Shown here one piece after another: positions 1,591-34,739 of a DNA stretch of 64,000 nucleotides. Position 1 is the first letter of the stretch; each line of letters starts with the position of its first letter. The notes beneath the pieces are model-generated. The model saw only the letters and a program-made list of their open reading frames with translations. It was not told where the DNA came from and did no database searches. Both the position numbers and the translations under genes were made by a program. This DNA is from Undaria pinnatifida (taxonomy: Eukaryota > Sar > Phaeophyceae > Laminariales > Alariaceae): positions 8,543,473 through 8,607,472 of the forward strand of contig JABAKD010000005.1 of assembly GCA_012845835.1 (NCBI GenBank). The letters are read 5' to 3'.

Positions 1591-1639
1591 CACACCTCGG
1601 ACAGATCAGCTCACCGGAGCTCGAGCTAGCTCTTTTTGG

Positions 1640-2335
1640 AGCTAGCTCACCGGTGAGCTACGTGAGCTACATGAGCTGCACATGTTTTCCCCGGCTTGAG
1701 CTATAGGCGGTAGCTCATCTTCACAAGTTTCGAAGGCTTGAGCTATAGGCGATAGCTATAGGCGATAGCTCATCTGCCCGTGTTTCCAAAGCTTGGGCTA
1801 TAGGAGCTACATGAGCTAGCTCATCTGCCCCCGAGATGAGCTATAGGAGCTACATGAGCTACACATGTTTCCCCCGGCTTGAGCTATAGGCGGTAGCTCA
1901 TCTGCACATGTTTCGAAGGCTTGAGCTATAGGCGATAGCTCATCTGCCCGTGTTTCCAAAGCTTGGGCTATAGGAGCTACATGAGCTAGCTCATCTGCCC
2001 CCGAGATGAGCTTTAGGAGCTACATGAGCTTCACATGTTTCCCCCGGCTTGAGCTATAGGCGGTGGCTCATCTGCACATGTTTCGAAGGCTTGAGCTATA
2101 GGCGATAGCTCATCTGCACATGTTTCCAAAGCTTGAGCTATAGGCGATAGCTCATCTGCACATGTTTTCAAAGCTTGAGCTATAGGCGATAGCTCATCTG
2201 CACATGTTTTCAAGGCTTGAGCTATAACCGATAGCTCATCTGCACATTTTTCGAAGGCTTGAGCTATAGGCGATAGCTCATCTGCACACGTTTTCAAGGC
2301 TTGAGCTATAGGGGATAGATGAGCTAGCTCACGAG
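1640..2335. repeat. Left subterminal tandem array of hAT-A
   Basis: Roughly fifteen units of 40-50 bp in head-to-tail order, with the palindromic core GAGCTATAGGCGATAGCTC and a less conserved link CATCTGCACATGTTTTCAAA. Several units carry a variant with GGAGCTACATGAGCTAGCTC. In a DNA transposon such arrays are candidate transposase binding sites. Confidence 0.85.
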
Positions 2336-2589
2336 CTGTATAAGTGACCAATACAAGTACGCATAATAGAACGACATCAACACAAACAGCCATATACTTT
2401 TACTTTTTGTACGTACCAACGTACAGCAGTACCAGGGGTGTGATATTGTATGAGATCGGATCTGGTTGTTCTGAATATAATATAACTAACGAATAGGTCG
2501 ACACACAGCAAAACTTGCTGTCAGCTGTCACCACACAAGAAGCGCTCGCACACAACACAACACCGACACCATACAGCAACACCCCTAGC

Positions 2590-3590
2590 ATGCCCACGAC
2601 CCGGGGCAGCAGCTCTAGCGGCGCTTCGGCCGTAGACCAGGCTGGCGGCGTGCAGCAAGCGGACCCATCGATGGATGTGGGCCCCACCAACAACGCCATC
2701 GATGTGCATGAAGAAAACGATCAAACCGCGGCTGAAAACAAGGTGCGTGGTTCGGAGGGTGTGATTTTGTCCCCCTAGACCATGATGCTGATGTTCGAGC
2801 TGCATCATCCAATCTGTATCTGTATGCCTCTCTGGAGTAGTAGTAGTGCAGTTGAAGGGTAAGGGTCGGTACAAGTATGTGGCGAGCTGTAGCTGTACGG
2901 GGTTTAATTACTCGAGCAGGTGTTTGTGTTTGTATACCGTACTCGCACGAGTACAGCAGGAACGATGACAGTACCAGTAATTGTTTGTTGTTTGTTGTTG
3001 ATGCTATTATGCTTCTCTCATAATACAGATACGTTGTGCATGATGTGTGTACGAGACGCCTCGCTTGTTCCGCACTCTAACGCGTGCTGTGCATCTTCTC
3101 ACGCTGTGCTCACCAAAAGGAGGCGAAGGAGACAGCCATGCGTGACACACCAACACCAATTGGGTTTAGGCGGTGTCCCGTACCCGGCAAGACAGCGACC
3201 CGCTCTATCGTGTACAAACATGGCACGTGGCTCGCGTACTGCTGTTTGTGCCAGCGTCTTCTGCCGTCCTCGAGAGGGGCTTCAGCACGGCTGGGCGTCT
3301 GATCACCGGGTCCCGGAGCAGCCTCTCCGCGGTCTACGCGGAGATGGTGCTGTTCCTAAACGGAAACCAAGACCACATTCCTATTGAAGTGCCGGCCCTA
3401 TCAGCTGAGCAGGCGCTTTAGGCGGTACCTCGGAGGCTTTCTAACCCTACGGCGGAGGAGGTTGCCCTTTCTGCGGGCGAAGAGAAGGACGACGACGCCT
3501 GCGACGAGTACGAAGGGGAAAGCTCAAGCTTTAAGCTTCACCTAGACGCCTTGGGGATAAACGGGGGCAGCGGCGGATTTTCTGTGTTTT
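2590..3590 (+). pseudogene. hAT transposase remnant with C-terminal dimerisation domain
   Basis: A likely first exon, 2590-2742, starts MPTTRGSSSSGAS and ends AENK at an AAG/GTGCGT donor. The downstream part from about 3173 reads DPLYRV, then WHVARVLLFVPASSAVLERG, FSTAG and SRSSLS..MVLFLNGN. This is the conserved C-terminal hAT dimerisation motif (family pattern: LAR..L.IPASSAPSERVFSTAG). An in-frame TAG at 3419 ends it, yet the same frame stays open for some 85 codons beyond and keeps a coding look (acidic EEKDDDACDEYEGE), so the stop may be recent. The catalytic core (DDE region) is absent, removed by an internal deletion between about 2750 and 3170. The motif call is firm; the first-exon call is weaker. 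Confidence 0.75.
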
Positions 3591-4084
3591 GTGATGAGAG
3601 TTCATTTGTTGTCTGCTTGTTTCTTTGGCGATGTAGATGGTTATGGTTTCTTGTTTCTGTCTCTCTTGTCTCTTCTTATTTTTGCACCTTGCAAGCCGTG
3701 TTTAAGGAACGGTAACGGTGTGTTCGGGATTCAGATTATACTGTGATTCAATATAGCCTTATTAATGGGTGGTGGGTGGGTGGGTGGGCGGGTTGGTTTA
3801 CGCTGGCGTTGCAGCGCACCACTAGTAGTAGCCATATTAATTGTGTTCATGTAGTTTTTATGAGTAAAGTATAAGTGTAAGTATGCGAATAAATGCTAAT
3901 AATAACATCAATATAATACAAATATTGGTAAGTCTTGATGCTGTCCTGTCGCTCGTACCGTCGTTGCAAGTTCATATGCATGGTAAGCTGTACAACCCAT
4001 ATTATTCCTATACATTCGCTCGTGTCCCGGAGGGTGGGCTTTTTCAGCTACTCATCTTACATGCATGTGTTGCCGAGAAAGAGC

Positions 4085-4750
4085 TACGATGAGCTGCGTA
4101 CATGAGCTATGATAACATTCTCCGGGGGTGAGCTATAGGCGATAGCTCATCTGCACATGTTTTCAAAGCTTGAGCTATAGGCGGTAGCTCATCTGCACAT
4201 GTTTTGAAGGCTTGAGCTATAGGCGGTAGCTCATCAGCACTTGTTTTGAAGGCTTGGGCTATAGGCGATAGCTCATCTGCACATGTTTCGAAGGCTTGAG
4301 CTATAGTCGGTAGCTCATCTGCCCATGTTTTGAAGGCTTGAGCTATAGGCGATAGCTCATCTGCACAGATTTGCCCAGGCTGAGCTATAGGCTATAGCTC
4401 ATGTGCACACATTTGCCCAGGCTGAGCTTTAGGAGCTACATGAGCTAGCTCATCCGTCCCCGGGATGAGCTATAGGAGCTACGTGAGCTGCACATGTTTT
4501 CCCCGGCTTGAGCTATGGGCGGTAGCTCATCTGCACATGTTTCGAAGGCTTGAGCTTTAGGCGATAGCTCATCTGCCCGTTTTTCCAAAGCTTGAGCTAT
4601 AGGAGCTACATGAGCTAGTTCATCTGCCCCCGAGATGAGCTATAGGAGCTACATGAGCTACACATGTTTGCCCCGGCTTGAGCTATAGGCGGTAGCTCAT
4701 CTGCACATGTTTTCAGAGCTTGAGCTATACATGACAGATGAGCTAGCTCA
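4085..4750. repeat. Right subterminal tandem array of hAT-A
   Basis: The same unit as the left array, about thirteen copies, closing with an inverted-repeat end at 4740-4769. Because the core is palindromic, orientation is set only by the link sequence, which runs the same way as in the left array. Confidence 0.85.
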
Positions 4751-4769
4751 TGAGCTGTCCGGGGTGTTG

Positions 4770-5941
4770 AGTAATGGCAAGTATAAATAGAGAATATGCC
4801 CTCATGTCCTTCATGATACGGCGTGTCACCAATAATAATAGGCATGTTTAGGTAGATACAGGCAAATACAGATGAGTTCGTATAGGCAAGTACAAGTAGT
4901 TTTAGCTAAAAAATACCTCTTACCTGTAGCAACTATGAGTACACGTATACTTTAGCGTATGCATCCCCACCACGACTTGGGTGTAACCCTACACACAAAC
5001 TGTACTCGTGCTGTATCCGCCACGGCCGTGAAGATTCCGCGCCGAGCGCTGAAGCATTTGCTCGGTGCTTTTTTGTACTCAGCAACCTAGAGTTCATATA
5101 CTTGTGCCCCCCGGCAAAGCCTGACCTCCGCCGACTCCAACGGTTATTTTCGCCCAGGAGAATCTCCTCCGAGGATAAAAGACGCCCGTGACTGTGTGTG
5201 ATGCTGCACCACCTGTCTCTGCCTCGGGTGCTGTACGCGTACGTACGTTGATGAGGGTGGCCGGCCACCCATCGTAGTATTTTCCTAGCGCAACTTCACT
5301 GGAAATAGTTCAATTTTGAAAAATGTAAACGTGTCAAACGCCACACGGAGGAATCAGTTTTTGCGCAAACTACCACCGACATCAAAAGTGCTGGTTGTTG
5401 CAGTAGCCTGCTGAGTGTTATTGTTTTGCTGGAATTTTCCAGCTCGATTTTCATGTTCTTGTGCCGGGTAGGTTGTTTTTGTGCTGGCTGGTACGTACAG
5501 CGCAGCAGTGCAAGTATTAGATAGTGGACTGCTTCACTGCCGGACACTGCCTGTGAGTAGTCAGGCAGTAGTAGTGGATTGCTGTACTGCTGTGCGTATC
5601 GAACGCTAAGAAATTACGCCGGCTGCATGAAAGTCGCCGCCGTGGTGAACTTATTATATATGCCAGGTAGACCGAAACTTCACATACATCCCTATGCTTT
5701 CATTTCGATAAACCCGAATGCACAATAGCTCCATGAACTACCGTAACGGTGCGGGCACACGCACAGGGGTGAAACATCAGCATCCTTGCATCACCCTTCG
5801 TCCGAAGGGAGACCTAGTAAAACATTATCAATACAGTAGTAATAACGGTACCAACGATACGTATAATACCACAAATAGTTAACATTAACCCGCAATGAAA
5901 CGTAATAATAAAATATTTTCATGCACATCGAGTGTCAATTT
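4770..5941. other. Unassigned intergenic sequence
   Basis: No gene supported. Minus-strand open frames of 111 aa (4933-5268) and 83 aa (5296-5547) have no recognisable motif or splice-supported context. Confidence 0.4.
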
Positions 5942-7020
5942 CAGGGCTTTTCACGGGCCAGGTCACACGTCGCGGGTCGGGTCGGGTCCTGACACGACCC
6001 GACCCGCGAGAATTTCGACACGTCTTGGCCCGACCCGACCCGACCCGACCCGCGAGATTTTTAAACATTTTGACCCGACCCGACTCGACCCGAAAGATTT
6101 TGAAAACCTCCTGACCCGACCCGACCCGACCCACGGGATTTTGAAAGCCTGTTGACCCGACCCGCCACACTTCGAGTGATCCGTGAGATGCGGGCTTTAT
6201 GCAGGTCCGGTCGACTGAACCCGTGATATATCTCACGGATCAAAGTCGAAAAGTCATGAACATGTTTGGATACGTACCTTGGTCTGTTGGTTGGTCCTTG
6301 GTCCCGCGTACTTTTCCCAGGATGTCGTGCTCTCTGGCTTTTTTACCGGCATTGTTTGCAGCATTATTACGTGGTGTGCGCGCGAAAAAAGATAAAGAGA
6401 CCGCAACCCACGCATGGGCAATTAGCCACGCCCGTAGCGCTAGACCACCGGGTCGACCCGACGAGCGACCCGACGAGTGAGCTAGCTATCTATGCAGTCT
6501 CCGGCCCCGGCAAGCAACCTAGCTGAGGCGCGTCCGGCAGCAAGCCCACAACTGGGGCGGCGGATCTGCCAGCATGGGCTGCGATCCGCGAGGGTGGGTT
6601 GTCTGCTGCTGGTGCTTGCTGCTGCCAGTGCTGCTGCTGTGCTGCTGCTGCTGTGCTGCTGCTGTGCTGCTGCTGTGCTGCTGCTTCCACGACGACTGCT
6701 CTTGCTTTGGTCACAATTCGTACTGGTACGGTATTTCTCGAGCTAGTTAGCTACTGTATCTATGCAGTCTCCGGCCCCGGCAAGCATCCTAGCCGAGTCG
6801 TCTTCGGCAGCAAGCCCACAACTGGGGCGGTGGATCTGTCAGCAGCGGCTGCGATCCCCGAGGATCCGGGATCTGCTGCTGGTGCTTGCTGCTGCCAGTG
6901 CTACTGCTGCCAGTGCTGCTGCTGCTGCTGCCGCTGCTGCCGCTGCTGCTGCTGATGCTTCGACGACGACTGCCCTAGCCTTTTTAAGCTAGGTCACATT
7001 TCGTACTGGTATGATAAAAT
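5942..7020. mobile_element. Truncated hAT-type element, GACCCG family (hAT-B copy 1)
   Basis: It begins with the same terminus as the complete copy in EXO1 intron 2 (CAGGGCTTTTCACGG). Subterminal units of GACCCGACCCG plus GCGAGATTTTGAAA follow (5975-6175), then two tandem cassettes of about 260 bp (from about 6491 and 6758), each starting at TATCTATGCAGTCTCCGGCC and ending in CTG-repeat tracts. Similarity to the complete copy ends near 7020 and the right inverted end is missing. No transposase is seen. Confidence 0.82.
6600..6960 (+). repeat. (CTG)n trinucleotide tracts
   Basis: Two impure CTG/GCTGCTGTG runs at about 6605-6685 and 6875-6955, one in each tandem cassette of the truncated hAT element. 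The same tracts recur at about 32810-32855 and 33080-33125 in the complete copy, so they were carried by the element. Confidence 0.85.
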
Positions 7021-8250
7021 TCATACCGGGTATCCAAGGTGTAGGTATGCGTCGTACATGGGTTCTTGTACTGCCATTTGTCGTCTACTGGTATATTGTT
7101 GCACCCTGCAATGCAGTAAGCGTGTGTGGCCTGGCACTTTGAGTGGACTTGGATGGATGACAATATACCTGAATAATACGGCTTCAACTGACACGGGGAT
7201 TCGCGTAGTAATATCTTATGCCTGATACGAGAAGTTGTGACAACCTCTCTCGTCCCGATACTCCCATCGTATGTTATCATAGCGTCCCATCTAGTTTCTA
7301 CGTTATTTGTTTGTGTTATTTTACTCGTGGTGCTCTACTGCGCGCCGCACGAGTATTTACAGTTACAACACGACGTAACACCCGTGAGAGACCCCCAAAC
7401 GGGCACAACATGTCAATACCTCTGGTGCATCCCCATAAAGTCTGATATACTGAGAAGAACTTTAAAACGCACCTGTTTCGCGATCAAATACAGAGTTAAG
7501 CTTGGCCTATTTATCATACTTTTCGAATACAAACGACGCCAAATCACGCATTTTTTGCCTCCGGCGGGCCCTCCGGGTGCGCCTCGAGCGGGGCCCCTTC
7601 GACCGCGGGGTGGGGTGGGGGGGGGTAGCTCGTTTCGCTCCTTTGACTGTGGTCGACTCGTTGACGAACAAGTCGACCAAAGCCAGGTGGTTGGCTGGCT
7701 AGGTTCGCCAGCCAACTATTAACTAGGCGGGAACTCCAACTCACAGCCCTAGTGCTTACAGATAGACTATCGTAGGCTACCGGTCCATCATACTGTACCG
7801 ATATCATACGACCTGTATCATGCAGCCCCAGCATTGAAGGAAGTCTAAGCATTTAAAGGAAGCCAAATGCTCCGCGACCAAGTGACAACGTCATGAGGCG
7901 ACCGTGTGGCGCGCAGCTGGCTGCAAATAGCAAACCAAGAAGGGGAACCAGAAATAGTGTATTTCATACCTCACACCTGTAGGTTGTTGCGTTGTTGTAC
8001 ATGTCGTAACATGTCGGTTGGATATGTCAGCGCTGCAATCGTGCCACAAAGCACGAGCGGGTGGAAAATTCCAGAAATTCCGAGATGTCTTCTGACTTCT
8101 GATGCGGTGTACATTAACTCAGTGTTCTATTACAAAGTAGTCTGTTCTGCTATTTGACTGCTGTTGTCGGCGGTATTTTAGGTACTGCTGCACCGTACAC
8201 ACAACAACAGCAGTTGCGCAACGACACAGACGCATTGCAGCGAGATGTGG
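7021..8250. other. Unassigned intergenic sequence
   Basis: No supported gene. A C/G-rich stretch at about 7555-7625 ends in a short G run. The remaining open frames are short and overlap on both strands without a clear coding signal. Confidence 0.4.
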
Positions 8251-8266
8251 TCTACCAATAATTCAC

Positions 8267-8536
8267 CTTGAACTTCCGGATGTGGAAGAACCTGAGCCCC
8301 TTCTCAGCGACTATCACCGTGTCCCCCGGTTCCAGCCCAGCCGGATTCATTTGGTAGTCGTCCAACAAATTTTCGTTGATGTTCCCGTCCTTGTCAAACA
8401 CAATTTCCCCGAACTCGTCATAGATGACCTCCTCCTCCTGCTGCTCCCCCTCTGACATGAACAGAGCCCCCGATCTAGGGTTCTCTGTCAAGCGACAAGG
8501 AAGCACAAAACATTCAGGCACTGAGCTCGTCATCAT
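8267..8536 (-). CDS. Small acidic protein or first exon, unrecognised
   Basis: The ORF opens MMTSSVPECF and continues with an acidic stretch (EEEVIYDEFGEIVFDKDG) and a compact segment PGDTVIVAEKGLRFFHIRKF. It meets an AAG/GTGAAT donor at 8267; without splicing it would end six codons later. If the ATG at 8536 is the start, it is a first exon of about 90 codons. An acceptor at 8485 (TTGACAG) is an alternative, making it an internal exon. A TATATAAA-like sequence lies about 170 bp upstream (near 8710, minus strand), fitting a first exon. I found no continuing exon downstream and do not recognise the family. Confidence 0.45.
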
Positions 8537-8539
8537 AGT

Positions 8540-9878
8540 TTTTTAGTAGAAGTAGGATCTGGCTGCCATACAAGTATAGATCTCAAAAGGAATTTACCAC
8601 CTGCACCTTCCTGCAGTTGAGTTCGACGCAGCTAGCTTGTAGTCGCAGCAAACACTACTAATATTTAATGACACGAAGACTGGACGCCAGGTGTATAGTA
8701 CGTAATTTTTTATATACTCAAGCACAGATAATGCAGGTGGCAGTCATGGGAAAGCTGAGTTTTCGTGTGTCAACAGCCCGCGCATTTTGAAAAGGGCACT
8801 CACTTGGTACTGGCGCAACTCCCCTGCAAGCGACGGGTAGACGCTTGCTAATTGGCACCAGAGATGGTCGCGCGATGGTGACGAACGCTTGAGCATGTCT
8901 GGAGATGAAGAGCAGGACGGTCCTATGAGGAAGGGAGGACGAGCAGGCGTGGGTACACACGTAGAGGCGATTAGTCATGTGACACATCACTGTGATACAA
9001 CCCAATATCTCTACCCCGTACATGTGAAAACAATTTTGAAATCCCTTACCCCGCAAGGGAAGTTGGCAGTATCCACCTTCGACTCATGGTGAGGCCTGAT
9101 ACCACCGTTGGCTTTGCGCTTTGCGCACAGCAGCAGTTCTCGTACCCGGCGTTCACAAGGAGGGGGTTTCATGTGCATTTCTTGCATGTTTATTTTTACC
9201 ATACATGGTGTTTAATTTTATTTTGCCGTTTCAACCGATTCAACGTATCCGTCCGCAGCTGCAAAAAATGCCGTTTCGACGTTTCGACTTCAAGCAAGCG
9301 CCACCCCAAGAAAAGGGAAACAGGAAACCAGGAGAGCAAGAAAAAACCAGGCCATTAGGTCTCATCAAGCACAACAAGCTTCAGGCTCCCGAGCTCCAAG
9401 CTCCACTGTCGACTCTAATAGCGAGAAGCAATCGATAGGAATAGCCAATGCAACAAAAAAAATAAAAATAAAAAAACGAGTTACAAAAACGAATCAAGGA
9501 TCATGATCTTCTCGTACGAGAAGACTTGTGACACGCTGCCACGACGTCGGCTCGCATCGTATGGGATGTTGGTCCATGCCTTATCGGAAGAATTTGGGAG
9601 GTCTACCGGGTCCTTTTTGGTGGGAGGTGGCACGACCAGGGGTATAGGAGTACAAATGGCAGTATTAGAGTACTACGTTAGACTATATATTCATTCAGTG
9701 GTAGACTATAATAATAGTGTGGTTCGTAAAAGGGGGGAAGATGCTACAGAGAGAGGGGGCAAGACGAGGGGGAGAGAGGTGGAGCTGGTACACAGGGCAA
9801 GCAAGACGGCAGGGAGACTTTCCTTTCAATACATACAACCGATAGCGGCATCGAGCAGCAACAACAACACCGCACGAC
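8540..9878. other. Unassigned sequence left of the LTR element
   Basis: A plus-strand open frame of 131 aa (9503-9898) runs into the LTR boundary and has no motif I can name. Nothing else is supported. Confidence 0.4.
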
Positions 9879-10378
9879 TGTCACGAATCGTGTCCTAGGC
9901 AGTGAGGTCTGGAGTCAGGGCGAGACAGACGAGGATATATATCTATCAAGGCGAAGCAGACGAGGATATCTAGCCTACTAGCATCGCCGGGTCCCTATGT
10001 GGGCTATGTCTGAAACACGCCTCAGATATTCATGATGACTGACCTCCGAAGGACCGATACGACCGAGTGCAGAAGGCGCTTGTACGTTCCTCGGAGAAAG
10101 AGAGCAAGTCCTCTGTGCAGATGCTCATCAAGATATGAAGTCTCCCAAGAAAGTAGTAGTTAGTGTGTAAATGGTAACAACTTGATTGCTTATTCGAAGG
10201 GTTTATGAACGTGAACCCAAGGAATTGATTGATTGTTGATTGATTGATTGGTTGGTTGATTGTGTCCAGGTGGGGCAGCCACACCCGACTTAGGGAGGGG
10301 ACGTAAATATCGCGGCCCTTACTATCAAGAAAACGCCTCTGTCATAGTAACTCTTGAAATTGTCACGGAACCGTAACA
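9879..10378 (-). repeat. LTR (3' end of the minus-strand element)
   Basis: 500 bp, TG...CA, starting TGTCACGAATCGTG on the plus strand and ending ACGGAACCGTAACA. It matches 15597-16079 nearly throughout. Confidence 0.9.
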
Positions 10379-10381
10379 TCC

Positions 10382-12309: not shown

Positions 12310-12600
12310 CGAGGCGTCGCGACGGGAAGGAGGCACGAGCAAGGGCTCGGAGCGAAGGAAAGGCGTAACAGCGCACGGGCAAGGATTCGGAGCGGAGGAA
12401 CGGTGGAACAGCGCACGGGTCAGACTTCAGAGCGAGCGATCGGTGCACGGGCAAGGCTTCGGAACGAAGGAGCATCGCGCGGGCAAAGCTTCGGGGCGAG
12501 GGAACAGCGCGCGGACAGGGGTGCGGAACGGGAGAGTGCGCACAAGTCCGGGTTCGACGCGAGGGGACGGCGCGCGGGGAAGGGAACGGCGCGCTGGAAA
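12310..12600. repeat. Degenerate GC-rich repeats of about 45 bp
   Basis: Imperfect units around GGGCAAGGCTTCGGAGCGA and GGAACAGCGCGCGG. Open frames across it on both strands (for example 144 aa plus, 105 aa minus) arise from the repeat composition and are not taken as genes. Confidence 0.6.
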
Positions 12601-14059
12601 GGCTGGTCTAGATGGACGTCCTTCCATCGCCTTCGCGTTAGAGATGCAGGCTTGGTACCCGTCGTTTGATGTCGGGTGATTCCGTGCCGTGGCAGGCTTC
12701 TGACGAAGGCGGCACCTCCCCCCCTTCGCGAGTTGAAAATTCATGGAAAGAAAGGAACAGAGGAACCATTGTAACGATTGTGGGCACGGACGTTAACGGG
12801 ACGGCGGTAAATAATGATGAACCCACGAAGCCGAACAGGGGCCGGGTTGCCGTCTCCTTTAGAATTGGAGACGGTAACAAAGGTCCCAACAATAAGTGCG
12901 GAGCCATCTTTAAAAGGCATTCCACCTCCTGCCAAACAAACATATCATATCGAACAGAAGCAACACAAGCATGAAAAAAAAAAAACGACAGCGAACGACA
13001 GCTAGCTGAGGAATATAGCGCAGTATGTGAGTCTTTGTACAAACAAAGGAGCGCAAAAGTATGTGCGCAGTCATGCTATATTCTGCTTAATTGAGATGGA
13101 CATGCGAAACAAAACAACCAGCAGTAGAGACAGGCGGAGGCGGTCAGACAGCAACAACACCAGAAAACAGCGGCCTAGCAGCAGAATACATTGCTTGAGA
13201 GATGAGTGCAAACGGCAGGGAGTTGACAAATACAGCGGAACATGCGAGCCTTTCATTATATACGAAGGAACGAAACTATGCGTGCGCACATGATATCCGG
13301 TTCAATAAAAAAAGAATAAGATAATACATCATCAAGCGGCTCTATCCGTGTCGTTGCCTCATCCTAGAGAGAGCCAACTATGTGGTCATTGCTTGCTGTG
13401 TCTGACGACAGCGATGTCCACACCGCAATCATCGCCTGCATCCAAAACAGAACTCAAAATAATGGGGAAAATGAACAAAAAAAAGGGGTGGAAAAACAGG
13501 AGGGCGGTTCAGCAACGACTGCACACAGAAACGATGTCGTGGTAGCCACAACCGCAACAAAAACCCGACAAAGCAGCAGTAACAACAGTGGAACCCTTCC
13601 CGGCAAAATGAAATGACAGATGAAGGTAGGCATGCATAGCGTACGTAACAAATTGACGAGCATTTTTTTATTGATCAACAGCGACCACCTCCAGCTTGAT
13701 CACGAGCAAACGTGGAGTTTGTTGGGTTTGATCACGGGCAAACGTGCGTGATCATGGGCAAACGTGTTTGCTCGGGAGCAAACATCGCCGGTTTGATCAC
13801 GAACGAAGTAGAGCAAAAACAGGGAAACATCAAAATTAGCGGGAGAGCAAGTGAAAACATCACAAGAAAACCGTGCTCAGCATCCAGCCATGTGTACCCG
13901 GTACACTAATGAATCCACAAGCGATAACAGAGAGCATATCGAGCAAAACAACAATGATAACAGACTGCAGTAAGCTCAGTGTATCACAGCGCCAACAATT
14001 AGATTAAACTAAATTAAATTAAATTAATTGAGTGACACAGCTCCTAAAGTGGGAAGACG

Positions 14060-15596: not shown

Positions 15597-16079
15597 TGTC
15601 ACGAATCGTGTCCTAGGCAGTAAGGTCTGGAGTCAGGGCGAGACAGACGAGGATATCTATCAAGGCGAAGCAGACGAGGATATCTAGCCTACTAGCATCG
15701 CAGGGTCCCCATGTGGGCTATGTCTGAAACACGCCTCAGATATTCATGATGACTGACCTCCGAAGGACCGATACGACCAAGTTCAGAAGGCGCTTGTACG
15801 TTCCTCGGAGAAAGAGAGCAAGTCCTCTGTGCAGGTGCTCAAGATATGAAGTCTCCCAAGAAAGTAGTGTGTAAATGGTAACTTGATTGCTTATTCGAAG
15901 GGTTTATGAACGTGAACCCAAGGAATTGATTGATTGTTGATTGATTGGTTGGTTGGTTGATTGTGTCCAGGTGGGGCAGCCACACCCGACTTAGGGAGGG
16001 GACGTAAATATCGCGGCCCCTACTATTAAGAAAACGCCTCTGTCATAGTAACTCTTGAAATTGTCACGGAACCGTAACA
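15597..16079 (-). repeat. LTR (5' end of the minus-strand element)
   Basis: 483 bp partner of 9879-10378. The first 50 bp or so are also present as a partial extra copy at about 15508-15554, each preceded by GGACACCA. Confidence 0.9.
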
Positions 16080-18296: not shown

Positions 18297-18844
18297 TAAA
18301 TTTATTTGTCAGTCACGTACCAACACGGCCGCTTTCATTATTTTCCAGTTGACCGCGGCAAACGACCAAAACAGCAACGGAGACTTACACCCCACTGCAG
18401 CAACAACAAAGCACGCCCTCCACACCGCCTATACTTCTCCATAGAGTCTTCTAGGGGAAAAGAACCATCCGCCGATGCGATACCGGGACGAATGCATGCC
18501 ACTGGTTCCTTATGTGAATACCGTCTATTATACTGCTACGACGACCTTCGCGTGGCGCAGCTTAACAGAAACGATTTTTGCCCTTGTGTTTAATGCTGAA
18601 TAGTTATTCCCTGTTTTTGGTACACCCTCCCCATCCATGCTATAAGTCAGACATAAAGCGTGTGTGAAATAGAGCATCAGTCAGTGTGTCGTGTGTGCTC
18701 TTACTCGTACCTATATTACTTGTACGAGAGTACAAACTGCTATGTCGATGTGCCCGAACTACCACCCTCGAGGACGGGGACGCAGCCACTCGTATAATGC
18801 CGCTGTGTGGCTTTTTCTGGCTCCGCAGTAATCGTAATCACTAC

Positions 18845-20523
18845 CAGTCGTGTTGGGTCGGGTACTCTACCCGAGTACCCGCGGGTATTTACCCGGGTAT
18901 TTACTCTACCCAGCTCGAGGGTAGGTTTGGTACTACTCTCATACCCGTGTACCCAAAACCCGGGTAAGTTTTGTACGACTCTCGGTACCCTACCCAAATC
19001 CCGGGTAGGTTGGGTACTACTCTCCGTACCCTACCCAAAGTCGCGGGTAGGTTTGGTACTACTCTCGGTACTCTACCCAAACTACCCGTAGGTATTCGGG
19101 TATCTACCCGGTACCCGCGGGTAGGTTTTGTATTACTCGCGCACCCGTACGCAAATCCCGGGTAAGTTTGGTACTACTCTCGTCGCCCTACCCAAATTCC
19201 GGGTAAGTTAGGTACTTCTCTCGGTGCCCAACCCAAAATCGCGGGTAAGTTGAGTACTTCTCTCGGTACTCTACTCTACCCCACCTCGGGTATATACCCG
19301 GGTATCTACCTGACGTATGGCATCTACCCGACGTGGGGTAGATACCCTGGCATCTACCCGAGACCTGGGTATCTACCCGGTACCCGGCAAAATGGAGTAC
19401 TGGTGACGTCATATTGCGTGCGCGGGGCGTTTCTGCGGGCCTTTTTCCGCGACCTGCGATTGAGTACGCGGGTATACTTTCTGCTCTACCCACTACTCAG
19501 AATTCCCGAGTAGCGCGACTAGGAGAGGTGGGGCAGTCATGAAACCACGCAGATTCTGGTAGTTCAGCTGCATCTACCTATGATGCAGGTGCATCCTCCT
19601 CACGAGATGCGGCAGGACAACAGGCAGAGGTGATCGAAGTGGAGACGGAGGAAAGAGGGGCCTCGAATAAAGCTATATAAGGCTGTGTGTGTCGTCGAGC
19701 CCGCTAGGATCTTCGACGTGAGGACTGGAGCGGAGTTCGCCGTGCCCCAGGCTGTGATCAACGCCATTGAGTCGTTCAAGGTACCGGCTGATTTTCAGCA
19801 GGACGGGGGCCCGTGAAAACTCCTTCATGTACAGCCTGGGAAACTATGTGAAGCTGAAGCCAACTTATCTCAACAAGGATGGCAGCAAGAAAACGACAGC
19901 CGAATTATACTGCCAAGCCAGCGCCGCGTGCCGAAGAAGCAAAAAATGATACCGTGCGCAGATGGAACGCCGTTGCGGGGATCTAGCCCGGAACGGGGGA
20001 AGGGGTACCGAAAACCTCGAAGACCATATTGATTTATGTACATTTCGTACCTTGGTAAAGAATACGCGAGGACAGGCAGAGCACCCGACTACTCGTAGGC
20101 AATACCCGCGTACCCGAGGGCGGGTACTCTACGGGAGTACCCGAGATTAGGTTGGGTACTACTCTCGTACCCGTACCTAGATCGCCAGTAGGTTGTGTAC
20201 GACTCTCGGTACCCTACCCAAATCCCGGGTAGGTTGGGTACTACTCTCGTTTCCGTACCCAAAATCGCGGGTAGGTTTGGTACTGCTCTCTATACTCTAC
20301 CCGGATTACCCGGAGGTACTAGGGTATCTACCCGATTTACCCGGAGGTACTAGGGTATCTACCCGGTACCCGCGGGTAGGTTTGGTACTACTCTCGTACC
20401 CGCAGCCAGATCCCACGTAAGTATTGTACTACTCTCGTAACCGTACCCTGATCCCGGGTAGGTTGAGTACTATACTCTCGGTACCCTACCCAAACTACCC
20501 GTACCCTACCCAACACGACCTTG
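18845..20523. mobile_element. hAT-type element with GGGTAC-rich arrays (hAT-C)
   Basis: Ends CAGTCGTGTTGGG at left and CAAGGTCGTGTTGGG (complement of the right end) are flanked by an exact 8-bp duplication ATCACTAC (18837-18844 and 20524-20531) that fits the hAT target pattern nTnnnnAn. The homologous site at about 51325-51340 carries a single uninterrupted ATCACTAC. Most of the 1.68 kb is degenerate tandem sequence built on TACCCGGGTA/GGTACTACTCTC (18860-19510 and 20090-20515). The middle (about 19510-20080) is unique and holds only a small remnant frame. Confidence 0.92.
19770..20080 (+). pseudogene. Possible transposase fragment inside hAT-C
   Basis: A frame ending in a stop at about 19949 includes GNYVKLKPTYLNKDGSKK and YCQASAACRRSKK. 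A second frame just downstream has TENLEDHI near 20000. The cysteine pair followed by an N-L-x-x-H pattern is reminiscent of the BED-type zinc finger at the N-terminus of hAT transposases, but spacing and frame are not preserved. I regard it as tentative. Confidence 0.3.
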
Positions 20524-20760
20524 ATCACTACCTCTTCGTTTTAGTCATGCGTGCGCTTTTGCCACGTCTATATACATGTACGTACGTGTACCTACCGAGA
20601 TTCAATAAATAAAAGCGCTACTATGATACCTACCGCGGTACCATGGGGATTTTTTTACAGTAAATATTATTTGTTGTGGGACAAAATATGACGCCAATTT
20701 GGAAATGTCTTGCCAAGTTTTATTTTATCAACCTCTTCATACATCAAGATCCGAAGAAGG

Positions 20761-22030
20761 ACAACTGGAGAGTACCGTTCAAAATACAAAATTTTGCGCA
20801 CTTCGCGCTTGTCTCGCTCAGCATCCATCCGCGTTCACGTCGAGGTGAGGAACGGATAAGGTAGGGCGAGGGGCGTTGGAGCCACCCCCCGAAGACGGCG
20901 CTCAAACGAAGCGATTTGACCGAGAAATTCCAGCCTCGAGAATCCCATACTGAGGCCGAGACAAAAAAAACTACTGACCAAATCCCTGTTCCCCCCCAAA
21001 ACAGAATCATCATATATACGCTAGGGCATGTTTTAATGAGCACCACTAACAAGAGCAACAGATATGGACGCGACATCGACAGGACCACAACATCTTCGAC
21101 GACAGTGGGGAGAAAACAGAGCGTATACGTATACGTATAATCGTACACTAAATAATAGCAATGTGAAAAAGAAGTACAGACAGTTATGTTAACACTGCGG
21201 TAGACCACACTACCAACCTATTACGCAGGGTATTTCGTGCCTCCGTCGTTTGCATGATCGCCTGACAACCTCTACCAAACGAAGTAGCATATGCCTAACA
21301 AAGTAAAGTCACCCTCGCGTTCAATAGTAGTGGTGACATCGCATGCCCATGTCACCTCGCTTGGTGTATTTATTTATAAGATGTATCTCTGTCTTGGATT
21401 TGGCGACCTCAGAGCCCCACATCGGCACGGCAAAAATCATAGGCGTAAAATCGTATATGTGAGACAATAATAATGTGAAAAGGAGATACAGAGAGGTATG
21501 CTAAAATTGCGGTAAACCGCACTACCAACTTATTACGTAAGGTATTCCGTACATACCGTCTGCATGATCGCCTCCCAACCTATGCCGAGCGAAGTATGAC
21601 TAACGAAGTAACGCAATTGAGCGCGTGTACACTAAGCGTTCCTTTCAAAACAATAACGATTCGCATATCTCCTTGTCGTTCTGAATGGCGGTGACAGTGC
21701 ATGACCATCACCTCGCCTGTTGTATTTGGCAATATGCATCTCTTTCTTATAATTAGCGATGTCAGAAAATAATGGTATCTACATGATTGTACCTATCGGT
21801 TGAAATATTCTATTATTCGATCCATGTACAATAACAAATTATGAAGCTTTTAGCACGTTGTTTACTACACCTAAGAACTGGGTTGCATACTACATGTAAC
21901 ATCAAACCTTCTAGAAAAATGAACATTACCAGGCGGGTGATATACAGGGGTGTCTTCTTGCTGCAACCGTCAGATTCGTCCCCTTCAAGGGTTTAGAGTT
22001 TCCGCGCACATATTGAAATGCTCGCCCCCC
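20761..22030. repeat. Intergenic sequence with a duplication of about 300 bp
   Basis: Sequence near 21145-21430 (AATGTGAAAAAGAAGTACAGA...) recurs, diverged, at about 21465-21770 (AATGTGAAAAGGAGATACAGA...). No gene supported; a 154-aa minus-strand frame at 20744-21208 lacks motifs and has no splice support. Confidence 0.6.
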
Positions 22031-23260
22031 CGCCCCCCGCCCCCCCGATCCCTTTTGTTTAAACGCACCACCTGAAATCAAAATCTGCCAGAGTAGTAAA
22101 CACTACCAGCCAGGTGATATCATCTCATTATCCATCTAGCCATCCATGCCGTAGCTCCAACTCTTCCCCCCCCCCCCCTTTGTTCCCCGCCCAGTTCGTT
22201 CAAACGCCCCACTTACAATCGAAATCGGCCAGAGTAATAAACACTAATAAGCCATTGATATCACGTCATTATCTTTCTAGCCATCCATGACGTAGCTTTC
22301 ATTCATCCCCCCTCCCCCCCTCCAACGCCCCCTCCTTCCCCACACCCCGCGCGATCGCCTAGACCCAGCACCGCGCGTATAGTAGGCCCCTACATATATG
22401 ATTAATACGCGCGATCGGAGGATCACACACAATGTTGCGAACATCAGTGTCGACCAAATCCTTGATTTTAATATTATATGTGACCTAAACCTCTTAAAAA
22501 CCCTCCCCCCCCCCCCCCCCGCATTTTTTTTTTTTTCTTTTTTTTTTCCCTCGCTTCCTCTTGCTTAAACGCCCCACCTACTATCGAAATCCGCCAGAGT
22601 AATAAACACTTCCACGCCCTGGATACCGCCTCATTATCGTTTCAGAGCCGTCCATGCCGCTGCTGCAATTCCCACCCACCCCCGTCCCCAACGCCCCCTC
22701 CTTCCCCACCACCCGCACCATCGCCTAGACCTAGCACCACGCGTATAGCAAACCCCTACGTCTATGCGACCTAAAGCACTCCCCCCCCGCCCCCGCCCCC
22801 CCCCGCCACATTCCCCCCCCTCCCCCACAAGAAATATTTATAGTTTCCACGCACAAATTGACCTGCCCCACCCGTCCCCCCCCCCCCCTCCCCCCCTCCC
22901 GCCCCCCTTTTGATCAAAATCAGGCCCCCACGTCCTTCAAAACTCCGCCCTCCCCTCACCGGATATTCGACTCGCAGGATTCACTTGATAAACTGATGCA
23001 TTTCCTTCCACAGCTGTCAGATTTTGTCCCCCTCAGAAACGGGTTTTATAGTTTCCGCGCACAGACTGCCTAACATCACCCTGTTGACCCTGATAGCTAC
23101 ACTGTAGTTGCAAGGGGAGTCGCCGACCTATATCCTTAATGAGGACACACAACCCCTAATACGCGCGATCGGAGTATCACACACAGCTTGCAAAGATGAG
23201 TTTCGACAAAATATTCGATCTCACAGCTGGAGTGTATTTTAATTTTTATAATATACATAT
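22030..23260. repeat. C-tract-rich dispersed repeat (element C/D)
   Basis: Three diverged units contain ATC(A/G)AAATC(T/G)GCCAGAGTA and GCCATCCATG(C/A)CGTAGCT, separated by runs of up to about 20 C. The right part (about 22970-23260) reads GACCTATATCCTTAATGAGG and CACACAGCTTGCAAAGATGA. The whole block is present in reverse orientation at about 52990-54110, where the C runs become G runs. Confidence 0.82.
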
Positions 23261-23270
23261 GTATCTGGTG

Positions 23271-24038: not shown

Positions 24039-24176
24039 TAAGTTCTATCGGCATTGTAACCTTTTTGTACACCAAAGGCCGTCGTGGCCGCCAACGTCGC
24101 CAAGACGATGACTACCAACCAGGACAAAAAACTAAAACCCCTGTAATATAATAGACAAAAAAAAACGCACCTCGCG

Positions 24177-27100: not shown

Positions 27101-30100
27101 GCTATTGTGCACGGCTTTCGCAGACAAGACCAAGCGCGATCAACTATTTATCAGCACACGGTTTTCAGGGCCCCGAGGAGGCAACAATAAGACATGTTTT
27201 TTCCGAGAGAGTGACCGAGCACGAAAACGAGCACACAACCTCTACAGAAGCAAACCGACTAACATCCACCATGAAAGTATCTGACAAAACGGGTGTTCCC
27301 ACTACCTTCGCAGACAAGAGGCGGTAGATGGCAACCCAGAAAAGCAAGATCTCCCATCTCCTTCGCCGTGTCTCCGAGTGGCATGAGGTGTTTTGTCTCC
27401 TGCGAAACGAATGCAGGAGCACGGCTTTCGTATATGACACAAGGTAGCCCTCATATCGAGCGCCTATAGCACCAATAAACGGGGGGGGTGTAGAACCGAC
27501 GCTTGGGCTGCATGGTTTTAAGGGATGGCCGGTGCCCAACTTCGACATAAATCAAATTACAAAGAAAAAACGCCAAAGAGGGAAAAATGCCTTTTGCTCG
27601 ATAAATGTAAAATTCACGTACGGCCAGCACGGAGCTGAGCCTTGTTCGAGCGCATATGAAAACAGTTGCATCGACACTGCAGCAGCACATGGAACCTTGC
27701 TTGCTTCGATCATCAACACCGGACGCCACCGCATGGCAAGTCGAGGCCCGCAGTTTATTGCTAAAAAGGAGTGCAGCCAGCATCGGCCTTTCACGAAGAC
27801 GTCACAACGCGCATGCTGCCTCAGCTATACGGTCGATCCACACACTGAAAACTTTTCTTGTTTCCCCAATGTGTGCAGTATGTATAGACAAAAGCATCCT
27901 GCGGATCACCACGTGGCAGAATCAGGTGTTCCACGAGGCTGAAAATAGCTCCGCTTGTAGTAGTATTGCATTAATGCGTCAAGCGAAGGAATAAGCGAGA
28001 ACCCTTACACCGCGTGCTATGTTTAGATTATGCACTCTACCTCAGCCTTCGGGTCGTAGATGATGTGATGACGAAATGTTAACCTTGCTCTTTTGTACTG
28101 TGCCCAGTATCCTTCCGGGACGATAAACTTGGAAGAGTTCACCGCGCGAATGATCTGTCCATGACCAAACAAGGGGTGGCGACAACACAAACACAGTGTC
28201 GAACAAGAGGTGGCAAGGACATAAACGCAGTGAAAACATCCTCAGCCACATATGCTTAGCGTTGATGTGGTCGCTGTTTCGAAATATCGCTTATTTTCGA
28301 ACACCGCAGCACCCTGTCAAAACTACAAACCAGACGCGGCACCTTAGCCACAAGCCCAACATGCTGCGCTGGTCCTAACCCCCGTTGGTGTGGGGCACAC
28401 GGGGTGAGTGGTCCAATTAAACTTTTTATGACCTGCGCTTCCACTAGGTTCAATTCATCGTCCACAGCACGCCTCACATGGTGCCAGGGAGCCACGCGGC
28501 AGACACGCTATTACCTTCAGCCGTGATCAGCTGAAAAACCACCGTTCGCCCAACCAAAACAACGGCGCAGGCAACAATCTAACCATCCCGGGATTGCCGC
28601 GCTCTCTCACGGAGAGCTTCCGTTGTAGCTGACCCCGTTAGAACTCCACCCGCGTTTGGGGACAAACTTCTCGGAATTACCATGGGCTAAATTTCGAAGT
28701 GACCCATGTACTGTATTCACAAGCTCGGCGCCACCTCCAGCGCCCAGTGTCTACACGCGGCGGTCGCGCATATGAGGGTTGACATCACACTCAACGTTTG
28801 GCCTACCCTCGCTTGCAAATGCAAGCATAGGAAATCGCAGGGTGACGCGAACGCATGGGATTCCGCTCCCTTTAGTAATAGCGGGGCTTACCTTGTCAAG
28901 GCTCCGATGTTTGCTGACGAGTTTGTGCGCGGTTGCGATGCCCAGTCCTTTCACGGCAGCGGTGATGTAGTCACATCCCACCAATAGACAAAGATCCAGA
29001 AACTGTGGAGCAGAATCATGCCGACGGGAGGACATCTCTTCACGAACGGGACGTTGGGTACAATGACGGTGTCTGATACCAGGTAACATGCTTCGGTTAG
29101 CGTGGAAACACACATGTTTTCCGCCTAACCATCTTATGTAACTGCTATGTTTCAAACGAGCAACTGCCGTGACGCTTCGAACAGGTCGCGGCAGCTAGCC
29201 CGGTCGCTTCCTGGGTCCGTTCGTGGTTGCAAGGGGGCATAGCAGGGGTGATAATCGTCTCTGCAAGCTGCATGCGCACGAGAGCGAGCTAACATTTGAG
29301 CACGAATACGCCAGCTTACGCATCTACCGAGCACGTGGCCAGTCGTGGGCGAAAATAGATCCTGATGATACGATTCAAAGGAGAGTCATTCCTTCAAAGC
29401 CATATTACACTTTGCTCTCCCAGTCTCCGAAGCTCTCAACGAAGCGTCTTCACGACTTCGGCTGAAAGCGTAACCGCTAACAATAACTTTTAACATCATA
29501 CTAAGTACCAGCATGCCCAGCAAAGCACGCGTACTCTCAAACGAAGATGTGAAGGGGTTTTCGCTCACCATGCCATTCTTCCAGTTGCACAGGGACAATG
29601 GCGTGTTGGCCGCGAGATTCCTTAGTTGGATCTCCTGCCCAAGGCCCTCGTTATCCATCTTGAACAACACCTAACACGCGCCGCCATAGAGAAAATTGAC
29701 CGCTCAGAAAACTGCGGGCACAAAAAGTCTTCCCCCGGCATCAAAGTTCATAAACTTGAATGGCACGACCGGTATTACAAGCACAACCATCTTCTGACTT
29801 GATCCATCCACTCTCGACAGAACACGACATCTACAGCAGATGCTTTGGAGTGAGTAGCACAACATCGGTAAGGGGGTTAAGTTCCTGAAGTATATATATA
29901 TATAAATTACAGGTTCACTGCGTGAGAGCAAATAATATGGAATCGATTGTTTTACACCTCAATGCAAGCGCGAACGTCAATAATCGCACCATTCCGCTGT
30001 AACTTGAGTATCGTGTAACCCCCTGCAAGCCGGTAGGATGGTATATAGGCGGGGGAGTGACTAAACCGGGCTCAATTACACAAGCAAAGCAAATATTCTC

Positions 30101-33100
30101 AGCACGGATGAGGCCTTGCACGTCATATCGGAAGAACATATCTCGTGAGTGTTTCGATCAATCCAGGAATTCCGCAAACACGAGACGTATGCCGAGTATT
30201 CCTCACGTGACAAATGGCGCAGGGCTGGTCAAGCTCACGGATAGCAATGTAGGTAGCATCATTGAGCTGTACGTGCCAGTCTGCGCAGCGAGGTGGACTA
30301 GAAAAATTATACCTGGTACCTGGTGTAACATACAGCGAGCAACGAGCCCTTGTTTTCCACGTGAGGCAACGCGGCATAAGTGCTTTCAATTAGCATGAAA
30401 GCCATGGGTTAGCACGATCATCCCGCTGCTCACCTACGCCATGTTAGACAACACCATTTTACTCTCCCCCCCTCCGTCTCTTTTAGGCACTGCTATTATC
30501 AAACCTTCACGCAATATGATAAGATGTCGCAACAAAATAACCGATAACGAATTCACGGGAACGGCGCTCATCGGAAAACGGCGCCTTGTGGAGCACAATG
30601 CATTGAACGGCCAACTTTTACTTACCATCGGGCAGTGTCATCGCCATTACCTTCTTGCATCCATAAGGAAGGCAGTCTGAGTCCTCCGTTATCACGACGT
30701 CCACCGCACCGGATCGGCTCAGATACGCCAACTGCGCGTCTGCTTCGTAAGGTGCCACAATGAGCTTCACCCTCGCACACCGGAGCGCCTGCGCACGTAC
30801 GCCAAAAGCGGGGGGGTGCCAACATCGGCGGCAGAAACTCGGTTGTATGCTCAAACCGAAGAAAAACCCTGATTGTGTACTTGTACCAGGATTGCACTGC
30901 AGGCACTGTCGTGTGGAGCGCCTTGAATGCAACATTGCACGAGGATATCGCAAAGAGAGACGAGCGCCAGATGTTCCGGGCTAGTTTACACGATTCGCCA
31001 CAGAGAAACATGTCCCTGATCTGAAGCAACCCAATTTATGCAGGTAAGTGCAAGGAATTATTGTCTAGCACTGAGAGCGTCTGCAGGTGTGAACGGGCGG
31101 TACACCAAGTTTCGCTTGATAGCTGAACATCAGTCGCCTACCAAAGAGTGATCCACGGTCGAGAATTGTCACCTTGATAAGCTTGAAGGCCATTTCGTGC
31201 GTGACTGCAACAGCCTTTGAAAAGTGCTGAGCTGCTGCGCCCGCTTCCCCCGCCGCCAGTGCCGCATTACCCTTGCTTCTCGCTGAATCTCGGTTCCTGC
31301 AACATCATTGTTCAGCCGGGGATGGTAGCAAACCATGACGTCAAACCGCAGCCAACATATTTTGGAAACCGCGTGTGGGTTGAGTGAAACGTTGCGGCTG
31401 TGAAACCTCCGCGACGCTCACAGCGCCTTCACCTTGGATGGCAGCTACGCGTTGCTCGTAAATCTCCATCACACAAACGCATGGTACCACTCAGCGCTAG
31501 GAACAGCAATCCGGCAAGGGAGGGCATACTCGCCGACGAGTTTTCGACCTCTGTCGGCATCACAACCCACCGTCTTCGCTCCATGTGCTTGCTTCCTTTC
31601 ATCGGGAGGCTAGCTCCATCGAACACCATGATCGGCTCGACCTGATGACCTCGTAGGAGATTGACCCGCTTCATGCAGAAAGTGACGTACCTGGATCAAA
31701 CGGAGTCGAGAGACAGCGGAGGTGACATCCACGCGGGTCGGATAATGCCCCCGGGAGGTATAAAATAGTGTACTACGCAAAACTCGCCAAGACGTTGAGA
31801 ACGTATCTGGCATGAGCGCTCCTTTCGCCGCGACGTGATCATTTCAGCTACAGCGAGAAGTTCACTGGACCCTTTGAAACTAGTGAAAAATCGCACTACA
31901 CTATTAATACCAATCACCTGTGCATTGCCATCATGAGGTTATATGAATACGTAGCTGGAGTAGCGTGTTACCGTGCGCTCGTTCTAATACGGTAGTACAG
32001 TAGCATAATAGTACCGGTACGGACTAGTACTTGGTATGCACCATGCGCTTGTGCTTGTTCGTCCTATACTGCCAGGTGTTATACAGCAGGGCTTTTCACG
32101 GATCGGGTCAAATCTCGCGGGTCGGGTCGGGTCGGGTCAGCTGACCCGACCCGACCCATGAGAATTTCGAGACGTCTTTGACCCGACCCGACCCGACCCG
32201 CAAGAATTTCGAGGCGTCTTGACCCAGCCCGACCCGACCCGCGAGATTTAAAAAACCTCTTGACCCGACCCGACCCGACCCGCGAGATTTTGAAAAGCTC
32301 TTGACCCGACCCGACCCGACCCGCGAGATTTTGAAATCCTCCTGACCCGACCCGACCCGACCCGCCACAATCCGGGTGACCCGCGAGATGCGGGTTTCAT
32401 GCGGGTCAGGTCGACTTGACCCGTGACATTTCTTGCGGATCAAAGTCGAAAAGTCACGGGTCACAGCATGTATACGTCGGTCGGTTGGTTGGTCCTTGGT
32501 CCCTCGCACTTCTCCCAGGATGTCGTGTTCTACGGTTCTTTCTACCGGTATTGTTTGCAACAGCATTTTTCGGTGTGCGCGCGAAAAATGAGAAAGAAAC
32601 CGCAACCCACACGCATGACCAATTAGCCACGCCCGCAGCGAGATAACCGGGTCCACCCGACGAGCGACCCGACGAGCGAGCCAGTTACCTATGCAGTCTC
32701 CGGCCCCGGCAAGCAGCCTAGCTGAGCCGCCTCCGGCAGCAAGCCCACAACTGGGGCGGTGGATCTGTCAGCAGGGGCTGCGATCCGCGAGGATGCGTTG
32801 TCTGCTGCTGGTGTTTGCTGCTGCTGTGCTGCTGCTGCTGCTGTGCTGATGCTGCTGCTTCGACGACGACTGCTCTTGCTTTTTTACGTTTGGTCACATT
32901 TCGTACTGGTATGATAATTCTCGAGCTAGCTGCTACTAATACTTCTACTGTTGTATCTATCTTCTATCTATGCAGTCTCCAGCCCCGGCAAGCAGCCTAG
33001 TTGAGTCGCCTCCGGCAGCAAGCCCACAACTGGGGCGGTGGATCTGTCAGCAGGGGCTGCGATCCGCGAGAATCAGGGGTCTGCTGCTGCTGCTTGCGGC

Positions 33101-34739
33101 TGCCGGTGCTGCTGCTGCTGCTGCTTCGACGACGACTGTGCCCTTGCCTCTTTACGTTTGGTCACATTTCGTACTGGCATAACCGTATTATTACTACTAC
33201 TGTTACGGCTCCAGCCGGCACGGGATTTGTGTCACACTGTATGCCTTGGTACAAGTAGCTAGGGGCACTGCCTGGTGATTGTTATACACGCTGTGATGAC
33301 ATATGATCGGAGCATCCGCACGAGAGAGGCAGGAAGCGGTAAGTTTTGTATGATTCACGGATCCGCGGGGCGCCTGCACGGCAACGGCTCGCAGCTGTAA
33401 GTTTGAAAAAGGCGGCTCCGCGGGCCAGATCCGCGGGTTTGACCCGCGGGTCAGCCGAAAACAACTCGCGGGTCATGATGGCTTGACCCGCGAGTGACCC
33501 GTATCTCGCGGGTCATGACCCGACCCGACCCGCGATATTTTGAAAATCTCTTGACCCGACCCGACCCGACCCGCGATATTTTGAAACCTCTTGACCAGAC
33601 CCGACCCGACCTGCGAGATTTTGAAGCCTATTGACCCGACCCGACCCGACCCGACCCGACCCGACCCGACCCGCAAGATTTTAACAACCTCTTGACCCGA
33701 CCCGATCTGACCCGTGAGATTTTGAAATGTTTATGACCCGACCCGACCCGACCCGCGATATTTCGAAACCCCCTTGACCAGACCCGCGGGTCGGGTCATG
33801 ACCCGTGAAAAGCCCTGTTATACAGTACATTCGTTCGGGGAACTGGCGATCAATGTGGGACCCGTGCAACTTTTTGTTTTGGGTTCCATTCGGTAGCGTT
33901 TCCATGGACGGGCTGGATGATAAAGATGAGCTAAATACGATAAGCTTGCTCACCCCGTACAGGTATCAATCAATCTATTAGCCAAGTCCAATGCACTGCT
34001 GGGTCATCGCATCGAAATGTCGAAACACCTTGACGAAGACAATGATGTACCTGGTATATACGTACAGAGTACAGAACACAGAATAGTACAGTACTTGTGC
34101 CATACTCGTACCAGGTATATAGAAAGGATTGCATCAATAGTACGCGACTGCCTGTGGCTCCTTGCACCTGTCGAGGAACAAGCCGAACCACACTCTATCT
34201 TTAGCGTGGATTGGGGTTCGCCTGGCCCCGCGAGATGCTACAATACCTGGTACCCTGGTATACAAGACCCCCGCATCTGCGGAACTCAACAAACTACTCA
34301 CTTGTCAGTATCTACACCGGTGCAAAGCTCCGTCCCGCAGCTGAAAGCTCCGCGATGAAGCCTTGCGGATAGAAGCGTGACGGAAAAGCAAAGACGCAAG
34401 CAGTTGATCTTCGTTTATACAGTGTCAGTGTGAGATATCGAACCGGTCGCCCCGGTGGCGTATCAGGTTATCCTCGAGCCTTGTATAGGTCAGTTACGTT
34501 GAGTTCGAGCCCCGCCGAGTGCGTACTCGTACAAATTCGTTGGGACTTTGTCTTGTGCACAAATTGACTTGCGGAAAGCGCGAGAGCGTGAGTTAGTAAC
34601 ACTCGATGAAATATCGACGAGCAGTGGGGCTGCTGAACCCCATGCGCGATAAAAATGGAAGGCAAGAACCGGGGGGGAGAAGGGACGACACCTGTGACCA
34701 CGGCTTGTCCAGAAGCTGGAAAGTAAAAGTGTAAGGATG

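Follow-up and report, generated by a model that had tools for sequence, protein, structure and literature searches.

To our knowledge, Hermes is the only member of the hAT superfamily for which the recognition of long, repeat-rich ends by the transposase is understood in structural detail. BED domains of the Hermes transposase bind subterminal repeats, of which one pair forms a quasi-palindrome and the outermost are strictly phased (PMC10368747), and the Ac transposase binds subterminal hexamers (PMC3260210). Here, we describe three transposable elements, named A, B, and C, together with a second copy of B, in a 64,000-nucleotide stretch of the genome of the brown alga Undaria pinnatifida (contig JABAKD010000005.1, positions 8,543,473 to 8,607,472; hereafter, the window). 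All three carry arrays of short repeats inside both ends, and these arrays share a main unit of 41 to 42 bp, which had been overlooked in a preliminary description of the same DNA. On the evidence given below, A is certainly and B and C are probably members of the hAT superfamily, and all three are probably cut-and-paste transposons, which we infer to be old.

Subterminal and tandem repeats in hAT elements are already known. What is new is that a period of 41 to 42 bp is common to families that use different words, in arrays that are direct and stand at each end of the element. Among the matches listed in the open-access literature on subterminal or tandem arrays of hAT elements, the extracts seen do not describe such a shared period.

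Direct arrays of a 41- to 42-bp unit in three elements

The limits of the elements (Table 1) are set by target duplications and inverted ends. The duplications are exact in A (7/7), B (8/8), and C (8/8), as had been proposed for three elements with short ends and duplications of 7 to 8 bp. The two ends of B are identical over their first 15 bases (15/15), and gapped comparison aligns the inverted ends of A with a 1-base gap and one mismatch and those of C with a 2-base gap. Among 100,000 random CA..TG position pairs of the window, 8, 1, and 4 had ends at least as similar as those of A, B, and C, respectively. Moreover, an 8-bp match occurred in 108 of 2,000,000 random pairs and in none of them together with 10/14 ungapped inverted matches, a combination that is informative for B only (A and C reach 5/14 ungapped). 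In a systematic scan for exact 8-bp repeats with ungapped ends, B came first of 82 candidates, and A and C were not among the best 25; a 90-base alignment did not recover the end match of A. An alternative 8-bp duplication for A (GGCAAGTA, displaced outward by 3 bases at the left end and by 6 at the right end) was rejected, as no inverted ends remain with it.

The core arrays make up 41% of A, 45% of C, and 30% of B. By wider spans, they cover 985 of 1679 bp in C, 1465 of 3179 bp in A, and 712 of 1731 bp in B; the earlier view that such arrays occupy up to most of an element thus holds for C and fails for A and B, in which they stay below half. Lags of 42 bp in A and 41 bp in B and C are among the top autocorrelation lags, with a further higher-order period of 170 bp in A. 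Lag 41 is outscored in the left array of C (lag 198 at 0.48 versus 0.40) and in the right array of B (lags 141 at 0.46 and 182 at 0.45 versus 0.43), and 41 or 42 ranks first in the remaining arrays. The spacing of motif matches is consistent with this period. Indeed, 25 of the 26 intervals in A measure 42, 43, or 84 bp (the other is 13), 7 of 9 in C measure 41 to 43 bp or a double (the others being 115 and 147), and 5 of 6 in B measure 40 to 41 bp (the other is 101); the second copy of B has one motif match and hence no interval. When sliding autocorrelation was applied to the whole window, 107 positions of the slide reached at least 0.40, and each of the 47 that peak at 40 to 43 bp overlaps one of the three elements or the second copy of B. 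Peaks outside the elements fall at other lags, such as 12, 20, 27, 32, and 67.

The ends of the elements are inverted, but their arrays are direct: in A, B, and C alike, the units are joined head to tail, and the left and right arrays point the same way. Comparison of the left with the right array gave best scores on the plus and minus strands of 522 and 36 bits for A, 279 bits and none for C, and 185 bits and none for B. A scan with the units likewise found one orientation, besides short reverse matches: 20 weak ones in A, mostly in its palindromic core, 3 in B, and 1 each in the second B copy and C.

Element C allows the insertion to be read directly. It lies within a dispersed repeat (18302-18844 plus 20532-20754), a relative of which is found elsewhere in the window on the opposite strand, with about 86% identity outside gaps once C is excluded. 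This relative is continuous across the junction of C, with one ATCACTAC and no array, and therefore C is proven to be an insertion by its empty paralogous site. The arrays lie within the inverted ends on either side, and none is present at the empty site of C; the data thus support that they are part of the elements and not free satellites.

The second copy of B, described previously as truncated, is real; its similarity to B ends at about 7017. The two copies are 85% identical in the interior stretch compared and share both an end and the array within it, their outer flanks being without match in a self-comparison. The difference between their left arrays amounts to about one unit together with some GACCC pentamers, so that the repeat number, for which a comparison between copies had been suggested, does vary between these two. 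We also observed a tandem duplication within each copy (32686-33180 and 6486-7017), the repeated block being about 280 bp long and containing CTG runs; in the full copy, one frame is alike in both blocks and has no Pfam match above the cut-off.

Element A is a hAT element on protein evidence. The remnant in its interior scores 31.7 bits against PF05699 (cut-off 21.4), aligning to profile positions 34-83 of 84, and the closest sequence in the PDB is the Hermes transposase (E 3e-4). This was the one match among the 11 of 27 interior frames of at least 45 residues that were searched against Pfam, the 10 others having no family above the cut-off. Because in-frame stops flank the remnant and these 10 frames are without a match, A is probably not autonomous. 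A stop-free frame of A that starts with ATG and ends AAG/GTGCGT (2590-2742) could plausibly be the first exon of a transposase now lost, with nothing above the Pfam cut-off.

Table 1. Features of elements A, B, and C in the window (position 1 is the first base of the window)
Feature	Position	Strand	Description
Element A	1591..4769		3179 bp; inverted ends CACACCTCGGACAG / CAACACCCCGGACAG; hAT
A target duplication, left	1584..1590		AGTAATG
A target duplication, right	4770..4776		AGTAATG
A left array	1654..2331	+	period 42-43 bp, 170-bp higher-order period; unit contains dyad TGAGCTATAGGCGATAGCTCA
A right array	4129..4752	+	unit and orientation as in A left array
A transposase remnant	3170..3418	+	hAT transposase C-terminal dimerisation domain, PF05699, E 1.3e-7; in-frame stops on both sides
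Second B copy	5942..7017		retains left end and array, the latter about one unit shorter; no right end found
Element C	18845..20523		1679 bp; ends CAGTCGTGTTGGGT / CAAGGTCGTGTTGGGT; transposase: none found
C target duplication, left	18837..18844		ATCACTAC
C target duplication, right	20524..20531		ATCACTAC
C left array	18919..19274	+	period 41-42 bp (GGGTAGGTTTGGTACTACTCTCG...)
C right array	20121..20513	+	unit and orientation as in C left array
Element B	32087..33817		1731 bp; ends CAGGGCTTTTCACGG; transposase: none found
B target duplication, left	32079..32086		TTATACAG
B target duplication, right	33818..33825		TTATACAG
B left array	32143..32389	+	period 41 bp, (GACCC)n plus spacer GCGAGATTTTGAAAACCTCTT
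B right array	33517..33786	+	period 40-41 bp; unit and orientation as in B left array
Paralogue of C's target repeat	51102..51871	-	uninterrupted (empty site), single ATCACTAC

What the arrays may do

On balance, and with moderate confidence, we favor the hypothesis that A, B, and C are decayed non-autonomous elements of hAT type whose variable arrays represent multiplied transposase-binding sites. The arrays would provide extra sites for the family's own transposase, its BED finger contacting the subterminal repeats and its catalytic part recognizing the tip, and they may thereby help the transposase to find and load the element ends. Whole units could be gained or lost through unequal exchange or template slippage, for instance, when an excision gap is copied from the sister copy. 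Furthermore, since the left and right arrays repeat each other in the same orientation, repair between them could also delete the interior and leave a non-autonomous copy; direct arrays at both ends would favor such internal deletions and thus help explain where non-autonomous copies come from. Binding, selection, and this repair route are what we infer here, the first by analogy with other hAT elements for which subterminal repeats have been described.

Several observations weigh against this hypothesis. In the Hermes study, mutation of the inner putative sites of the left end left about 70% of the activity, the right-end repeats made no contact with BED domains, and the authors judge auxiliary transposase binding inside the ends to be unlikely (PMC10368747); in addition, some Ds1 elements are mobile without the Ac hexamers (PMC3260210). 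Neither is selection on spacing supported by the indel-to-substitution ratio, which is 0.12 in the arrays of A, 0.15 in B, and 0.24 in C. Seven further repeat pairs of the window gave 0.21 by the same aligner and 0.11 by MAFFT, so that the ratio in the arrays is not clearly reduced; in this comparison, the unit pairs lack independence, and the control value depends on the aligner. Tandem Repeats Finder (TRF) reports a period of 40 for a 2.2-copy array outside the elements (12333-12435), for which autocorrelation reads 32. Finally, none of the interior frames of at least 45 residues in B (20/20) and C (10/10) matches any Pfam family above the cut-off, including hAT or KDZ transposases, although the lack of a KDZ transposase frame says little for elements that are non-autonomous.

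Dyad symmetry within the unit was considered as a general binding core and rejected. Self-complementarity exceeds that of single-base shuffles in A (P = 0.015) and C (P = 0.022) and weakly in B (P = 0.097), and these are the lowest three P values of 16 units; the 13 control units include one inside C (20296), and another (13729) exceeds B by raw score. However, conservation follows the dyad in A only, where it ranks 4th of 42 shifts. In C it ranks 28th of 41 and in B 39th of 41, which places the dyad of B among the least conserved parts of its unit. This also counts against the binding-site hypothesis, and dyads therefore give no general answer to the direct orientation of the arrays. Growth by slippage or by selection had both been suggested before; slippage fits the pentamers of B, and the indel and dyad analyses do not bear out selection on the arrays.

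The strongest competing explanation, which we hold to be quite possible without thinking it probable, is neutral growth: ordinary minisatellites would have originated inside hAT elements, through slippage or unequal exchange, and been carried along with them, the step of 41 to 42 bp being coincidental or reflecting a general size preference. Pentamer slippage is indeed plain in B, with 8.2 copies of GACCC at 33633-33673, and the 170-bp higher-order period of A looks like the product of unequal exchange. The indel ratio just described, the small effect of the inner repeats in Hermes (PMC10368747), and the number of families, only three, point in the same direction. On the other hand, sliding autocorrelation finds no other array of the window at 40 to 43 bp, the TRF value for 12333-12435 notwithstanding, arrays stand at both ends of all three elements, and other hAT elements make functional use of their outer subterminal repeats (PMC10368747, PMC3143072, PMC3260210).

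If the arrays are multiplied binding sites, their common step invites a more specific proposal, to which we give little credence: hAT-type transposases of this genome might impose a ruler of about four helical turns (41 to 42 bp), so that families whose binding words are unrelated would converge on one site per step, in arrays that point the same way at either end. B-DNA has 10.5 bp per turn, and 41 to 42 bp amount to four turns, so that sites at this step would share one face of the DNA. Loading in phase would then be possible for a number of transposase rings or for more than one subunit of a single ring. In the left-end complex of Hermes, positions about 44 bp apart occupy equivalent places on the octamer ring, bp 47 corresponding to bp 3 (PMC10368747), which would be the right order of size for such a ruler. 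Against it, the authors of the Hermes study doubt a recruitment of additional transposases by the inner repeats (PMC10368747), the indel ratios lend the ruler no support, B and C may be distant relatives, and the proposal draws on three families that were picked after being seen. Were one site per 41 to 42 bp to hold in unrelated hAT families, the DNA would record the geometry of a protein assembly, and the claim can be checked by counting periods in whole genomes. The window also contains, at 12333-12602, a degenerate array with a period of 32 to 40 bp; if this belongs to another hAT element, it would have a bearing on the ruler.

Affiliation of the elements and of their arrays

The assignment of all three elements to hAT in the preliminary description stands for A, through PF05699 and the similarity to Hermes. 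B and C each show an 8-bp duplication and short inverted ends, and these features alone make them probable hAT elements. It is unlikely, in our estimation, that B and C derive from another superfamily with 8-bp duplications (KDZ/Zisupton or P-like) and that the three are thus not all hAT. The CAGGG end of B, which we take to be of classical hAT type, argues against such an origin, as does the array architecture that both share with A, the carrier of a hAT domain. In its favor, their 30 interior frames yielded no transposase remnant, and the published descriptions include 8-bp duplications for Zisupton and, for Kyakuja, 7-bp duplications with CA..TG ends and no inverted repeats (PMC12730594). 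Moreover, 6403 KDZ copies versus 128 hAT copies are given for the brown alga Ectocarpus (PMC12477816), whose kinship to the genome studied here is our guess.

It had also been stated that the repeat words of the three elements differ completely. This is correct for A, whose unit resembles neither that of B (P = 0.24 and 0.98 for two variants) nor that of C (P = 0.98 to 0.99). The units of B and C are borderline similar through ACCCG words (P = 0.05 to 0.07), and the independent families may therefore number two instead of three. Accordingly, the arrays of at least B and C could descend from one ancestral array, in which case the common period would be inherited and not convergent. We regard this as quite improbable: the alignment of the two units through these words is not significant at 0.05, the comparisons of A with B and with C show nothing, and the ends of A, B, and C differ.

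That the arrays are independent satellites into which unrelated sequence fell, as their satellite-like higher-order structure might suggest, can hardly be maintained; the reading through of the empty copy with a single ATCACTAC and no array excludes it for C, and it is strongly disfavored for A and B, in which inverted ends and target duplications flank the arrays, and the two B copies share an array inside the same end between outer flanks that do not match.

Other repeats and comparison with described elements

Searches beyond the window used exact patterns and one protein query. In viral contigs, one pattern each for the units of A, B, and C and one for the end of B gave 0 matches, and no phage records were found. 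A 19-base exact pattern of the B unit matched three bacterial contigs once each in a search of genome contigs, where about 2 matches were estimated by chance; no array was present within the 261 to 351 bases around each, and these candidates were rejected. The protein search of viral contigs for a relative of the remnant of A was equally unproductive, with 51 stretches matching a pattern and 1 confirmed, the latter being 19 residues long and antisense to a 703-residue frame. That frame may encode a phage terminase, and the match was rejected.

Other repeats were noted in the window. Four blocks of GTGCC/GCGGT type with a 20-bp period lie at 49790-50560, with related spacers between them (ATCATACCAGGTCCCAG), and possibly mark another repeat-bearing element. 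Related repeat copies with long C or G runs stand in inverted orientation at 22029-23255 and 53001-54081, one stretch of 255 bp being 96% identical. In addition, a direct duplication of about 500 bp (9879-10378 and 15597-16079) is 95% identical by BLAST and 98% outside gaps.

The elements had been proposed to represent a distinct style of hAT evolution. This is too strong, since subterminal tandem repeats are published for Herves and Buster1 (PMC3143072, PMC4298943). The duplication length of A is also within the known range: hAT lineages with 5-, 6-, and 7-bp target duplications are published, and hAT7 of rust fungi has 7-bp duplications, as A appears to have, a likeness of duplication length alone (PMC12730594). 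Hermes, the housefly element whose transposase is the top PDB match of the remnant of A, resembles our elements in having subterminal repeats bound by BED domains; in contrast, Hermes has 4-bp words, 17 at one end and 14 at the other, in asymmetric placement and without tandem arrays of fixed period (PMC10368747). The mosquito element Herves has three imperfect tandem repeats of about 100 bp at its left end and a binding motif repeated at both ends, but its unit is long, its copies are few, and the tandem array is found at one end only (PMC3143072). In Buster1 and Buster2, from invertebrates and bats, short words are repeated in tandem below the ends and are family specific (TGGGTCGCG; TGCGGCTC), without a 41-bp higher unit in the parts compared; the GGGTCG word of B resembles that of Buster1, a likeness of the word alone (PMC4298943). 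Finally, Galileo and Foldback-like elements of the P superfamily carry tandem repeats in their end regions, 2 of 4 with extra transposase-binding sites, and these belong to the long inverted repeats of a P-type element, whereas the arrays of A, B, and C are direct (PMC3688188).

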